Source: Parabacteroides hominis (lineage in GTDB: Bacteria > Bacteroidota > Bacteroidia > Bacteroidales > Tannerellaceae). Taken from it: DNA of 22,054 nt. Under the pieces are notes generated by a model. That model searched no databases. It was given only the letters and a program-made list of their open reading frames with translations, and was not told where the DNA came from. Position numbers and translations under genes: made by a program. The stretch is taken from assembly GCF_014287585.1 (NCBI RefSeq), contig NZ_JACOOJ010000052.1, positions 1 through 22,054 of the forward strand, in the 5' to 3' direction. This document shows positions 306 to 13,999 of the stretch, piece by piece (the first letter of the stretch is position 1; the number at the start of each line of letters is the position of its first letter).

Positions 306-1997
306 ATGCCTATGAAAAATATACTCTTATTTGCCTTCTTATCCATTCTCTTTTTCTCCTGCGGGGAAAATCAGGCAGTTACGGAGCAGATGAACCGGGC
401 GGAAACGCTGCTGGCATCAAATCCGGACAGTGCATACGCAATATTGGAGAACATCGAACTGCCGGACGAACTGAACGAACGGCAGTTCGCCCGTTGGTGC
501 ATGCTGTATTGCCGGGCGGCGGATAAACTGTATAAGGATATGCTTTACACCGAACAACTCAACCGTGCTTTAGACTGGTACAAAAGCCACGGGACGGCAG
601 AGCAACAAGCGTGGATCGGCCTCTACTTAGGACGTTCGTATATGGAAGACAAACTTTTCATCCCGGCAACAAAGGCATATTCGGAAGCGTTGGATTTGGC
701 AAAGGAGAAACATTCATATAATGTGGCAGGATATATTTGCAGCTATATGGCAGATTCGTACACTTACACCGGACAGCGTTCCGAAGAACGGCGGAAGTAT
801 GAAGAGGCTGCCGAGTATTTCAAAAAAGTCGGCAATATGCGGAGTTATGCATTCGCTTTGCGGGATATCAGTAGAACGTGGGTATTTGACGACTCTTTGT
901 CCCTTGCACTTGACCTGATGCTGCAAGCGGATTCGATCGTTACAGAGATGAATGATTCCATAGGAATAGCATCAATTGCGAACGGATTAGGAAATATTTA
1001 TGAACATTTAGATGAAATAGACACAGCAAAGTTCTATTTTTTCAGAAGTTTGGCTTATGACACGATAGATAAAGCTTCTACCTATATGGCTTTAAGTACA
1101 TTATTTTATAATTGCGACCAATTGGATTCAGCCCACCATTATGTAGAAATGGCAGATTGCCCGACCAATAATCCATATATCCCTTCCGATCGTTTATATC
1201 TAAGCTACCTGATCGAAAAGGAGGCAGACAATATTCCGGAAGCACTCCGATATCTTGAACAATGTTATGAAGCAAAAGATATTTTATACGACAAGCAAAA
1301 ACAGGTAGACATCATCGACGCAGAGAAACGGCATGATTCATTAGCCGTTATCCAGCAAAATCAAAAACTACATTCTATCATCTATTTATTAAGCGGGCTT
1401 ATCCTTTTTGTCAGTTTAGTTAGTGTTTTGTTCTATCTGTACAAGGACCGGAAAAGATTGAACAAGATCAACAAACAGCAACAACTATTAGACGAAAAAG
1501 AGCAACTGTTAGCAAAACTGGCGGATGAAATCAAGCAAAAAGCAGCAATCAATACCAATACAAATAAGGAAGAGATAATGCAAATCCGCGAAAAAATGCT
1601 TCAAGCCAAAAAAGAAATCCTGATCCTGAGATGTGAGAAACTACAGCATTCCGCGTCCTTCCTGGAGCTGAAAGAACGCCTGAATAGCACTAAAAAATAT
1701 GGACAAAAGTTCTCCGAACAAGATTGGGAGGAGCTAAAAGAACAGATCGACTCTGCTTGTCTGAATTGGCTGGAAGCCATACAAGAAACGGAAAGCCTAA
1801 AGAAGACCGAGATAGAGACCTGCTATCTTAGTTTCCTGAATATCAGCATAAAATCAGAAGCCATACTTTTGGGAATCAATCCTGACTCAGCTAATAAACG
1901 CAGGCTTAGAACCCGACAAGCATTAGGGCTGACCAATTCGAAAACGAGCATTTGCGAATTTATAATCAAAAGGACATTGGAGAATATAACAATTTAG
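306..1997 (+). CDS. Membrane-anchored TPR protein with C-terminal helix-turn-helix (putative transcriptional regulator)
   Basis: The 563-residue product has a lipoprotein-type signal with Cys at residue 19 (context LFFSC). Helical TPR-like repeats fill about residues 25-340, for example the YLGRSYMEDKLF and GLGNIYEHLDEID stretches. A single membrane segment lies at about 357-379, followed by a charged coiled coil to about 460. The C-terminal segment, about 498-545 (ETCYLSFLNIS, then NPDSANKRRLRTRQALGL), has the shape of a LuxR-like HTH. This layout occurs in Bacteroidetes regulators that sense through TPRs outside the membrane and bind DNA inside; the assignment here is inference. Translation can start at 306 or at the ATG at 312, and the latter gives the more usual MKN signal start. 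The lipid anchor together with an internal membrane span is unusual, so the N-terminus may instead be a plain signal anchor. Its ligand and targets are unknown. The downstream beta-barrel gene is the obvious candidate target. Confidence 0.72.
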   Translation: MPMKNILLFAFLSILFFSCGENQAVTEQMNRAETLLASNPDSAYAILENIELPDELNERQFARWCMLYCRAADKLYKDMLYTEQLNRALDWYKSHGTAEQQAWIGLYLGRSYMEDKLFIPATKAYSEALDLAKEKHSYNVAGYICSYMADSYTYTGQRSEERRKYEEAAEYFKKVGNMRSYAFALRDISRTWVFDDSLSLALDLMLQADSIVTEMNDSIGIASIANGLGNIYEHLDEIDTAKFYFFRSLAYDTIDKASTYMALSTLFYNCDQLDSAHHYVEMADCPTNNPYIPSDRLYLSYLIEKEADNIPEALRYLEQCYEAKDILYDKQKQVDIIDAEKRHDSLAVIQQNQKLHSIIYLLSGLILFVSLVSVLFYLYKDRKRLNKINKQQQLLDEKEQLLAKLADEIKQKAAINTNTNKEEIMQIREKMLQAKKEILILRCEKLQHSASFLELKERLNSTKKYGQKFSEQDWEELKEQIDSACLNWLEAIQETESLKKTEIETCYLSFLNISIKSEAILLGINPDSANKRRLRTRQALGLTNSKTSICEFIIKRTLENITI

Positions 1998-2048
1998 ATT
2001 TGACTATTTCATCTTTCATTTTCATTGATACATAAAACATTACAACTA

Positions 2049-2080
2049 TTTGTCCATATAAATTCAGGTTTGTCCATATA
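2049..2080 (+). promoter_or_regulatory. Tandem TTTGTCCATATA sites, 20 bp apart
   Basis: TTTGTCCATATA occurs at 2049-2060 and again, identical, at 2069-2080. The 20-bp period puts both on nearly the same face of the helix. They end 13 bases before the likely -33 element of the next gene, the usual position of an activator site. Binding by the neighbouring TPR-HTH protein is an inference. Confidence 0.55.
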
Positions 2081-2093
2081 CTTTTTGACCGTT

Positions 2094-2125
2094 TTTGGTA
2101 CTCTCAAAGTTCACTACTACTTTTG
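2094..2125 (+). promoter_or_regulatory. Bacteroidetes-type promoter of the beta-barrel gene
   Basis: TTTG at 2094-2097 and TACTTTTG at 2118-2125 are separated by 20 bases. They fit the Bacteroides consensus TTTG, about 19 bases, TAnnTTTG. The predicted transcript would start near 2132 and leave a leader of about 40 bases before the ATG at 2174. Confidence 0.6.
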
Positions 2126-2173: not shown

Positions 2174-2803
2174 ATGAAAAAAATCCTATTCTTACTTTTA
2201 CTCATTTCAACCACCGTGTTCGCTCAAACCGAACACGGCCTGTTGGTCGGTGCTGGTGCCGGGTTTCCTATACAGGATGGCGCAGTGTATATGACAACTC
2301 CTCATTATGGATATAATAATGATGTGAATGTGAATGGAATGCTTGGTTATCGATTCCGTTTCTTGGCAAATCAGAGGTATTTTATCGACTTGGATGCGAG
2401 TATCGGTTTCCAATGGATGCAAGTTTACAAATACAAAGCACTTCTTCTTGGAGATATTGATAAAATACCGGAAGGAGACTATGTCATCCCACCCGGAGAA
2501 AGTTTTACTGATTTCATCATGCCGATCTCCATTGCCGCCAGTTGGAACTATCGCCTCACCGACAAATTCCATTTCGGATTAGGCGTAACTCCGACATTAT
2601 ATGTACAACCACAAGCCGTATTCGACCTCTCCATAATGGCTAAAGTCGGCTACCGGTTGAGCAAACATTGCGAATTAGGACTGTCCTATCAATATGGCTG
2701 TTTGAACACACTGAAGCACTTCAACGACGGTCCGGCACTCGGACGCCGGGGGCATTTGTCCGATTTGATGTTATCGGTGTACATTCCGTTTGTTATCAAA
2801 TAA
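2174..2803 (+). CDS. Small outer-membrane beta-barrel protein
   Basis: The 209-residue product begins with a clear signal peptide (MKKILFLLLLISTTVFAQ, cleavage likely after residue 17). The mature protein of about 190 residues alternates hydrophobic and polar residues in glycine- and aromatic-rich strands, such as LLVGAGAGFP, NGMLGYRFRF, IAASWNYRL and VGYRLSKHCELGLSYQYG. It ends in a strand (LMLSVYIPFVIK). This is the pattern of an 8-stranded outer-membrane barrel of the loosely defined OMP_b-brl type. No enzymatic motif is visible. It follows the TPR-HTH gene on the same strand but has its own promoter and the paired repeat sites, so it may be the regulated output of that gene. Its ligand or role is unknown. 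Confidence 0.72.
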   Translation: MKKILFLLLLISTTVFAQTEHGLLVGAGAGFPIQDGAVYMTTPHYGYNNDVNVNGMLGYRFRFLANQRYFIDLDASIGFQWMQVYKYKALLLGDIDKIPEGDYVIPPGESFTDFIMPISIAASWNYRLTDKFHFGLGVTPTLYVQPQAVFDLSIMAKVGYRLSKHCELGLSYQYGCLNTLKHFNDGPALGRRGHLSDLMLSVYIPFVIK

Positions 2804-2841: not shown

Positions 2842-2892
2842 AAAAAAGCCCTCCTTTCCGTTTCGTCTTTTTGAAACGGGAAAGGGCTTTTT
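2842..2892. terminator. Bidirectional terminator between convergent genes
   Basis: A strong hairpin pairs AAAAAGCCCTCCTTTCCGTTTC with GAAACGGGAAAGGGCTTTTT (one small bulge) around a short loop. It has a T-run on either strand. It can end the beta-barrel transcript from the left and the Fic transcript from the right. Confidence 0.85.
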
Positions 2893-3016: not shown

Positions 3017-4012
3017 CTAATCGAATATCCGAATATATTTTTCCAATACATAAATCCGCCCCCGTTTACTGCCTGTCATTTCTTTCAACATCTCCAAACG
3101 TTCCAGCTCTTTAATCAACTTATAGGAGGAAACCGTACCAAGGCCTGTTATCTCGGAAACTCCTGTTGCATCGATCATCGGATGTTTGTATAGTTCTGTT
3201 ATGACTTTCAAAGCATTAGCCGATCTGCTACCCAGGGCTTTAATACATTCTTCATATTCCTTTTGCAAAGACAAAATCTTTTGAAATGTTTCAACTCCCT
3301 TTTCAGCTGTATCGATTATTCCATGAAGGAAAAATTTAAACCAAGTTTCGATATCATTCTCAAGCCGGACTTTCATCATGTTGGAATAATATGTATTTCT
3401 ATGTTTTTCCAAATAATCAGACAAATACAATATAGGTCGTTTCAAAATACCTTTACTGACCAAATACAACGTAATCAACAACCGGCCAGTTCGTCCATTG
3501 CCGTCCAAAAAGGGATGAATAGTCTCGAATTGATAATGTATCAATGCTATTTTCAATAATTCAGGGAAAAAGATCTGCTCATTATGAACAAACTTTTCAA
3601 TATCTTCCATCAGTTCCGGGATCGAAGTGCAGACCGGAGGTACGAATATGGCATCATTAATAGACAAACCTCCTATCCAGTTCTGACTTTTCCTAAACTC
3701 TCCTGGCTGTTTGTGCTCTCCACGTACCCCCGATAATAAAACCTTGTGGACATTTCTGATTAATCTGCTTGAAAACGGCAAATCTTCCAGCATCTTGATT
3801 GCCTCGTTCATCGCGTTAATATAATTATGCACTTCCATCCAGTCATCCCGTTTGTCTAACGGAACATCTTCTTTTGATAAAAGCGCCTCTTCCATATTGG
3901 TTTGTGTACCTTCTATTTTAGAAGATTGTGTGGCTTCTTTCATAATATGCATACTGATGAACAAATCAAGATTAGGAATATGTTCTGAGTACATATCCAA
4001 CCGCCCCAACAT
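3017..4012 (-). CDS. fic: Fic family AMP-transferase (N-terminally shortened by an upstream nonsense codon)
   Basis: The visible frame of 331 residues contains the Fic active-site motif HPFLDGNGRTGR at 166-177 (catalytic His166, phosphate-binding loop). It also has the N-terminal inhibitory motif SSKIEG at 30-35, with the autoinhibitory Glu at 34. This is the class II arrangement. A winged-helix-like domain occupies about 265-325. Proteins of this family transfer AMP from ATP to target proteins, and many have a DNA-binding tail. The family normally has about 40 more residues at the front. That segment is present in the same frame up to an ATG at 4141 but is cut by TAA at 4028-4030. The ATG at 4012 is only 15 bases past the stop, so reinitiation is possible. 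Catalytic and inhibitory elements are both retained. Whether the protein is made is uncertain. Confidence 0.85.
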   Translation of the reverse strand: MLGRLDMYSEHIPNLDLFISMHIMKEATQSSKIEGTQTNMEEALLSKEDVPLDKRDDWMEVHNYINAMNEAIKMLEDLPFSSRLIRNVHKVLLSGVRGEHKQPGEFRKSQNWIGGLSINDAIFVPPVCTSIPELMEDIEKFVHNEQIFFPELLKIALIHYQFETIHPFLDGNGRTGRLLITLYLVSKGILKRPILYLSDYLEKHRNTYYSNMMKVRLENDIETWFKFFLHGIIDTAEKGVETFQKILSLQKEYEECIKALGSRSANALKVITELYKHPMIDATGVSEITGLGTVSSYKLIKELERLEMLKEMTGSKRGRIYVLEKYIRIFD

Positions 4013-9491: not shown

Positions 9492-9794
9492 ATGGCAACA
9501 ATAGCATTACAGAGAAAAAGGAAGAATATCGATCTGCCGGTAGAAACTTTGCAAAAACTTTCTATCGTAGCAGCCGAACAGGGCAAGAGCTTAAAATCAT
9601 ATATCGAAAGTATTTTAATAAAAAAGGCCGAAACTTTGAACATACAAACCACAGCTAATCCAAGTCCGAGTAACGATACTTGGTTTGACGACCCCGACAA
9701 CATGGCATCAGTCATGCGCGGCATTGAAGACATTAAGCACGGCCGATCTAAAACTTATACCGCAGAAGAAATCAAAAAACTGTTGGATATATGA
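9492..9794 (+). CDS. Antitoxin of a YoeB-type pair (ribbon-helix-helix-like)
   Basis: The 100-residue protein has an N-terminal ribbon-helix-helix pattern: a strand (RKNIDLPVE), a helix (LQKLSIVAAEQ), a turn (GKS), then a second helix (LKSYIESILIKKAE). An acidic C-terminal part follows (DDPDNMASVMRGIEDI), ending in a helix rich in charge. The N-terminus would bind DNA and the C-terminus would neutralise the toxin. The stop overlaps the toxin start (ATGA), typical of antitoxin-first operons. YoeB usually pairs with a YefM/Phd antitoxin, so this partner type is noteworthy. The exact family was not recognised beyond the fold. Autoregulation of the promoter just upstream is the expected behaviour. 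Confidence 0.8.
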   Translation: MATIALQRKRKNIDLPVETLQKLSIVAAEQGKSLKSYIESILIKKAETLNIQTTANPSPSNDTWFDDPDNMASVMRGIEDIKHGRSKTYTAEEIKKLLDI

Positions 9795-10069
9795 GTTATA
9801 AACTTATACTGGCCGAAGAAGCCGAACGGGACCTTTTATTGTGGAAAAAATCCGGACAGAAAAAAGACCTTTTGAAAATCCTGTCTTTGTTTAAAAAACT
9901 CGAAGAACACCCAACTACAGGAACGGGGCAAGTAGAACAACTGAAGGGAAATTTATCTGGTTATTGGAGCAGACGCATCAATAAACACTTCCGTACCATC
10001 TATGCCATCCATGAAGATATAGTGACAGTTGAAGTCATTTCTGCCAGAAAACATTACGATAATAAATAA
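9791..10069 (+). CDS. yoeB: Txe/YoeB family addiction module toxin
   Basis: The 92-residue toxin matches YoeB throughout: the middle segment EEHPTTGTG, then LKGNLSGYWSRRIN, and the end ISARKHYDNK. YoeB is a ribosome-dependent mRNA endonuclease. The expected active-site residues are present: Glu49, Arg68, His88 and Tyr89. The length is close to the 84-residue E. coli protein, so the gene looks intact. It overlaps the antitoxin by 4 bases. The S37 peptidase gene begins 18 bases after its stop and may be co-transcribed with the module. Confidence 0.92.
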   Translation: MSYKLILAEEAERDLLLWKKSGQKKDLLKILSLFKKLEEHPTTGTGQVEQLKGNLSGYWSRRINKHFRTIYAIHEDIVTVEVISARKHYDNK

Positions 10070-13751: not shown

Positions 13752-13999
13752 GTGAGCCAACAGACAAGGCAAGCCTTATACCGTAGGCTCTCTTTTGCCG
13801 TCTGCTTCAGCAGACGGATAGATGATTGTTCCGGCTTTGCCGGTTCCTCTGTGGGTTTTAACCCCTTTAAATACAATAGAAGAAAGGGACTAAAGTCCAC
13901 AGAGGAAGAGGCTTTGCCTTCAGATCTTTTAAACCGTCTGCTGAAGCAGACGACAAAAGAGAGCCTGCAACACAAGGCTTGCCTCGTCTGTTAGCTCAC
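13752..13999. repeat. 248-bp palindromic (MITE-like) element
   Basis: The ends are inverted repeats: GTGAGCCAACAGACAAGGCA begins at 13752, and its near-complement ends at 13999, with 24 of 26 end bases matching. Inside are nested arms: CTCTCTTTTG and CAAAAGAGAG; two hairpin palindromes, CCGTCTGCTTCAGCAGACGG at 13798-13817 and CCGTCTGCTGAAGCAGACG at 13934-13952; and CTCTGTGG with CCACAGAG. The sequence folds on itself almost end to end. It carries no transposase and no believable gene. Because it is a palindrome, both strands yield similar open frames of about 80 codons, which I judge non-coding. Confidence 0.8.

Follow-up and report, generated by a model that had tools for sequence, protein, structure and literature searches.

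Two identical 12-bp boxes in the window (the whole 22,054-bp stretch of DNA analyzed here) are probably an operator for a transcriptional activator. The best candidate is the adjacent TPR-HTH regulator, which would drive the neighboring operon. This judgment comes from comparing sequences across loci and genomes. It agrees with the sequence-only reading made earlier of the same DNA, which had suggested a one-component transmembrane regulator acting on the neighboring outer-membrane gene. That is still the best reading, because such boxes recur 3' of relatives of the regulator at a fixed distance from the promoter in two genera. Binding of the boxes by the regulator, activation rather than repression, and the nature of the signal are inferred. 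The features are collected in Table 1.

Table 1. Features of the window that bear on the proposed operator and regulator
Feature	Positions	Strand	Evidence or remark
Regulator gene (TPR, transmembrane segment, coil, HTH), 563 aa	306..1997	+	ORF; relative of the BT3442 family; AlphaFold2 mean pLDDT 84.1
Signal peptide with lipobox FFSC and Cys19 (predicted lipid anchor)	306..362	+	Alignments and regular expression
Single transmembrane segment, residues 358-376	1377..1433	+	Hydropathy
C-terminal HTH domain, NarL/LuxR-like fold (predicted)	1770..1976	+	
Degenerate TTGATACATAA element	2025..2035	+	Largely conserved in orthologs L049 and L002
Box 1 (proposed operator, distal)	2049..2060	+	TTTGTCCATATA, exact
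Box 2 (proposed operator, proximal)	2069..2080	+	TTTGTCCATATA, exact; 47 bp from the start of its TGT to the TA of the -7 element
-33 element TTTG, Bacteroidetes-type promoter	2094..2097	+	Sequence; 20-bp spacer
-7 element TACTTTTG	2118..2125	+	Sequence
Target gene, 209-aa outer-membrane beta-barrel-like protein	2174..2803	+	PF13505, 26.1 bits, below the cut-off of 28.7
Terminator-like hairpin 3' of the target gene	2855..2882	+	

Boxes, promoter, and regulator in the window

The identical pair of boxes and the Bacteroidetes-type promoter 3' of the pair, both claimed in the sequence-only reading, were confirmed; the -33/-7 elements are assigned by the Bacteroidetes consensus. The copies are 20 bp apart from start to start, and 13 bp lie between box 2 and the TTTG. 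The spacing had been described as a whole helical turn; it corresponds to about two turns and not to one. No other direct repeat in the window reaches 12 bp at a spacing of 15 to 30 bp. Such repeats averaged 0.03 (maximum, 1) in 60 simulated windows (first-order Markov), and shuffling the 176-bp intergenic region 20,000 times produced one in 23 cases. At a tolerance of up to 2 mismatches, the 12-mer has 9 matches in the window, compared to a shuffle mean of 1.91 (largest, 6; n = 100). A third copy that had been reported near the start of the window is present at positions 7 to 18 but matches at 11 of 12 bases (TTTGTCCATATT), and a role for it in the system is unsupported (it was not seen upstream in L002 or L049). 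This copy is close to the window edge and may belong to a gene cut by that edge or be due to chance. Another 11/12 copy, absent from the earlier note, is found on the minus strand at 1696 to 1707, inside codons of the regulator gene; it is kept in genome G017 but not in L002. The region 5' of the regulator gene contains a pair of its own, TATTGCCATTT and TATTGTCATTT, 20 bp apart at 201 to 231, which is possibly a different operator. L002 has much the same pair, but L049 lacks one of this form.

The closest orthologous loci fetched were L049 and L002 (Parabacteroides massiliensis). The beta-barrel-like gene directly follows the regulator region in the window and in L049 and comes two genes later in L002, in which the boxes are followed by genes for a DUF3244 protein (31.9 bits; cut-off, 25), a DUF4848 protein (207.8 bits), and the beta-barrel protein. 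All three intergenic regions share TGTCCATATA in box 1 and TCCATAT in box 2. An 11-bp insertion between the boxes and the -7 element in L049 puts the proximal box at 58 bp instead of 47 bp from that element. On the other side of the target gene, a convergent gene on the minus strand (3017 to 4012) encodes a Fic-domain protein (Fic_N, 80.2 bits; Fic, 66.5 bits), and the hairpin sits between the two. Farther along the window are two small overlapping genes on the plus strand (9492 to 10069) that resemble a toxin-antitoxin pair, the second being YoeB/Txe-like by eye, and a large imperfect inverted repeat (13752 to 13999) with 66-nt arms that are 88% complementary and 116 nt apart and a nested 30-nt pair.

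The neighboring gene had been described as encoding a membrane-anchored TPR protein with a C-terminal HTH, and prediction bears this out. The protein has weak TPR matches and a single membrane segment beyond residue 350, and its C-terminal domain is helical with an HTH-like fold; together with the lipobox signal peptide, these predicted features are those of a transmembrane one-component regulator. Cys19 is invariant in alignments of 13 and of 15 sequences. Among 53 proteins, the lipobox (by regular expression) is found in 45 and a membrane segment starting between residues 300 and 450 is found in 52, with the window protein included in each of these sets. The C-terminal 108 aa had no Pfam HTH match, GerE included, among those listed up to an E value of 10, a range in which the HMMER filters drop most matches above 0.1, and a Foldseek search with the C-terminal domain gave no match with an E value below 0.001. 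With the whole model, NprR and Rap structures were among the Foldseek matches (E value of about 1e-5); better matches came from eukaryotic TPR proteins such as LGN, and the likeness to NprR and Rap is therefore one of fold only. The window regulator is 79% identical to a protein of P. massiliensis and 76% identical to proteins of P. johnsonii, which places the DNA in Parabacteroides or near it. Relatives at an E value of 1e-10 or better are found in 33 of 38 Parabacteroides genomes. Some TPR-HTH gene copies are split into frames or contain stops (L087 in G014, L057 in G009, and L060 in G026), which suggests paralog turnover.

Promoter-phased boxes beside regulator relatives

Regions downstream of regulator relatives in Parabacteroides and wider were compared, with 52 non-redundant regions retained from 71 rows (score of at least 220, length of at least 90, near-copies removed). 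TAnnTTTG is found in 41 of these regions and in none of the other 11. In 28 of the 41, TGTCY or TGTAC is located 47 to 50 bp before a -7 element (mean of 0.54 and maximum of 3 in shuffles; n = 500), and the remaining 13 lack a box at that distance. Upstream of the last TAnnTTTG, TGTCY occurs 78 times versus 8 times for its reverse complement, and 19 copies are exactly 49 bp away. The palindrome TGATWATCA occurs 14 times in the 41 regions, 12 of them 67 bp from the -7 element. The full order, measured from start to start, is box, 26 to 27 bp, TGATWATCA, 18 bp, box, 49 bp, and -7 element. The clade of the window departs from this order in that its palindrome is degenerate and lies 5' of both closely spaced boxes, and the boxes of another clade are 38 and 59 bp from the -7 element. 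The element at 2025 to 2035 is a possible counterpart of the palindrome of the relatives. A fixed, helically phased site 5' of the -33 element looks like that of an activator, and the DNA-bound protein would most simply be the adjacent regulator.

Box extraction yielded 39 boxes, including six that had no -7 element to anchor them and were placed by hand; no box was obtained from 17 regions. Clades differ in their box sequences (TGTCCATAT, TGTCCTAT, TGTCCGGTT, TGTCCCAT, TGTACATG, TGTCYACGC, and TGTCTATGC). The nine-base palindrome is common to clades with differing boxes (e.g., L145, L144, L070, and L067) and is possibly the site of a second, common factor. Autoregulation, which had also been raised, is not supported: 30 regulator upstream regions with a -7 element contain 7 copies of TGTCY, none of them 47 to 50 bp from the -7 element, and a listing of upstream regions that covered 30 of the 71 rows likewise showed no phased boxes.

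Genome scans considered linkage in three frames of the strand of the match with a flank of about 1.5 kb. The sequence-only reading had proposed scanning related genomes for the 12-mer and had named random scatter as grounds for refutation; scatter is found in part, depending on the form that is searched. The single 12-mer with at most 1 mismatch was not enriched in 5 genomes (320 matches versus 296 for the reversed control) and is scattered; specificity is confined to the paired or promoter-phased form. Paired TGTCCATA with a gap of 8 to 18 gave 9 matches in 7 of 38 Parabacteroides genomes (reversed control, 4). Six of the nine lie just 3' of a relative of the window regulator, and the other three (L010, L015, and L017) were set aside as having no TPR-HTH gene. 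A single box plus a -7 element gave 20 matches in Parabacteroides versus 15 in the control. Five of the 20 adjoin a relative of the regulator by coordinates, and unlinked targets in this genus are thus unsupported. Across the order (393 genomes), 8 matches versus 2 in the control were found; three adjoin a TPR-HTH gene and one further match is the unlinked MACPF promoter described below. These low numbers indicate that the layout in its exact form occurs mainly in a few lineages. TGATWATCA plus a -7 element gave 27 matches in 10 genomes (control, 5), and 10 of the 27 adjoin a TPR-HTH gene, one of these being weak (52 bits).

The layout was followed into a second genus, that of genome G255, which is taken to be Bacteroides because 5 of 31 of its genomes contain proteins above the BT3442-family cut-off. 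Sets of 119 and 158 genomes were drawn from this same genus, and their counts overlap. The box-palindrome-box pattern had 16 matches in the 119 genomes and none in the control. Ten are directly after a TPR-HTH gene (two of them, L217 and L227, identical in sequence), two are full promoters without such a gene, and four (L218, L220, L224, and L225) also lack one and look like chance. In the 158 genomes, TGATWATCA-box-TAnnTTTG had 21 matches in 17 genomes and none in the control, with 18 directly after a TPR-HTH gene (L198 and L258 are identical in sequence). The remaining three are the same two unlinked promoters and L255, which looks like chance. One of the unlinked promoters (L182/L192) precedes a gene for a BSAP-like MACPF lipoprotein (PF01823, 48.4 bits) that scores 70.7 bits against NCBIfam BSAP5a, below the cut-off of 500, and the other (L228/L259) precedes a gene for a GLPGLI protein (159.9 bits; cut-off, 50). 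Neither has a TPR-HTH gene on its strand within 1.5 kb upstream. G202, the genome with the MACPF promoter, has two TPR-HTH loci with nearly the same box.

Identity and sign of the factor at the boxes

The strongest competing explanation, which we nevertheless consider unlikely, is that the boxes genuinely serve as an activator operator but belong to a different, shared transcription factor, with the TPR-HTH gene being a mere conserved neighbor or acting at TGATWATCA. The box core TGTC and the palindrome are common to clades and to the two genera, and the two complete promoters without an adjacent regulator would fit such a factor. However, the 18 of 21 layout matches that directly follow a TPR-HTH gene do so although the operons behind them differ (DUF3244, MACPF, C10 peptidase, and beta-barrel), and the boxes vary by clade (TGTCCATAT, TGTCCTAT, TGTCCGGTT, and TGTACATG), unlike the site of one global regulator. 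Box distance correlates with regulator distance (r = 0.58 with the TPR part; partial r = 0.35 given the recognition helix), based upon 38 of the 39 boxes, with the L004 box reassigned by hand. Such box-regulator pairing could arise via co-inheritance of adjacent DNA. The recognition helix itself explains little of the box variation beyond general divergence, which is a point for the shared factor (partial r = 0.14, P = 0.036, partial Mantel test), and an HTH recognition code is not claimed on so weak a correlation.

It is considerably less probable that the regulator, as a repressor or as a switch that proteolysis frees from the membrane, sits at the boxes to block the promoter. Fixed phasing would fit any DNA-bound factor, whatever its sign. 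Activators normally sit upstream of the -33 element. The boxes are likewise upstream of -33, and their distances move in helical turns, both of which argue against a repressor. The operon beside BT_3442, a relative of the regulator, had one of the top two fold changes in a co-culture, which speaks for inducibility and not for sign (available text of PMC8264420).

There is very little probability in the suggestion that the repeats are RNA-level elements of the 3' end of the regulator, or an attenuator. The boxes are just 3' of the regulator stop codon and read-through could transcribe them, but their spacing peaks relative to the -7 element and shifts by helical turns, and their distance to the stop codon is highly variable. 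A chance repeat in an AT-rich intergenic region, to which the scatter of the single 12-mer might point, is equally improbable, being contradicted by the comparative counts, in which both paired and promoter-phased boxes are largely confined to promoters next to a regulator gene.

If the adjacent regulator is the activator, the following route would link the envelope to the promoter. The signal peptide and lipobox are predicted to direct export and lipid-anchoring of a periplasmic TPR superhelix, which would be followed by one membrane helix, a cytoplasmic coiled coil, and the NarL/LuxR-like HTH. A signal in the envelope would engage the TPR part, and the HTH, probably as a dimer, would occupy the direct-repeat boxes 38 to 69 bp upstream of the -7 element. 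The bound HTH may then help RNA polymerase at the -33/-7 promoter, as the fixed phasing suggests. The target would be the neighboring operon of secreted or outer-membrane proteins, which here is the single beta-barrel gene.

Known systems and the operons under proposed control

ToxR and CadC are transmembrane one-component regulators. The window protein resembles them in combining an exported sensor, one membrane helix, and a cytoplasmic DNA-binding part in one chain, all by prediction, but it has the reverse order (HTH C-terminal), a putatively LuxR-like and not a winged HTH, a lipobox, and a TPR sensor. The RRNPP regulators NprR and Rap, which are cytoplasmic Firmicute proteins, share the TPR superhelix. 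In contrast, the signal peptide, lipobox, and membrane segment predicted for the window protein would place its TPR part outside the cytoplasm, unlike NprR and Rap. Similarity to the FimS-type TPR sensor histidine kinase (NF053520) is a weak TPR similarity of 25.8 bits over residues 107 to 262 only, far from the cut-off of 600, and the window protein has an HTH-like domain where the kinase would be.

The nearest named family is BT3442 (NF053779). The window protein scores 323.7 bits over residues 3 to 555 against a cut-off of 940 and is thus a relative and not a member. The BT_3442-BT_3433 cluster of Bacteroides thetaiotaomicron has the same architecture and the same place before a DUF3244 gene (L144 to L147). 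Six loci (L144, L145, L146, L147, and two in L115) exceed the family cut-off. All six have the palindrome, proximal box, and -7 element, and four have the distal TGTCY. Compared to this layout, the window has the boxes and the promoter, with the palindrome degenerate and 5' of both boxes. The same layout precedes operons with MACPF proteins, which are of the pore-forming toxin type, and C10 peptidases at BT3442-type loci. Operon content was surveyed with 113 of 148 downstream ORFs plus the L182 protein, the rest being omitted as far-downstream, overlapping, or from low-scoring loci. Profile matches among these 114 proteins include DUF3244 (30), two beta-barrel models (19 and 16), Peptidase C10 (5), MACPF (4), and DUF4848 (3).

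In the available text of PMC2954219, BT_3442 is described only as a TPR protein, in one putative operon with BT_3441, which has an immunoglobulin-like fold and is a homolog of PDB 3d33, and the MACPF protein BT_3439. Co-culture of B. thetaiotaomicron with Akkermansia gave the highest fold changes for the operons BT_3439-3441, which adjoins BT_3442, and BT_2217-2221, which encodes C10 peptidases (60- to 96-fold and 30- to 120-fold, respectively; PMC8264420, available text). That text names no regulator for either operon, and the word "regulator" is absent from it. In the openly accessible literature searched, no description of the operator, or of BT_3442 as a regulator, was found. The naming of the BT3442 and BSAP5a families by NCBI suggests that further work on them exists.

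A broader scheme can be put forward tentatively, although we judge it unlikely as a whole. The Bacteroidales may have a large family of membrane-spanning TPR-HTH switches that are the exported counterpart of the RRNPP peptide sensors. In such switches, the lipid-anchored periplasmic TPR part would sense a peptide or protein, which might come from rivals or might be the small DUF3244 protein secreted from the same operon. Clade-specific boxes together with the shared TGATWATCA would turn on surface and antagonism operons (beta-barrels, MACPF toxins, and C10 peptidases), unlinked toxin genes included. The promoter layout itself can be read for a widespread, uncharacterized group of Bacteroidales regulators. 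It ties these regulators to surface and antagonism genes, and, if the reading is right, their control would be directly testable.
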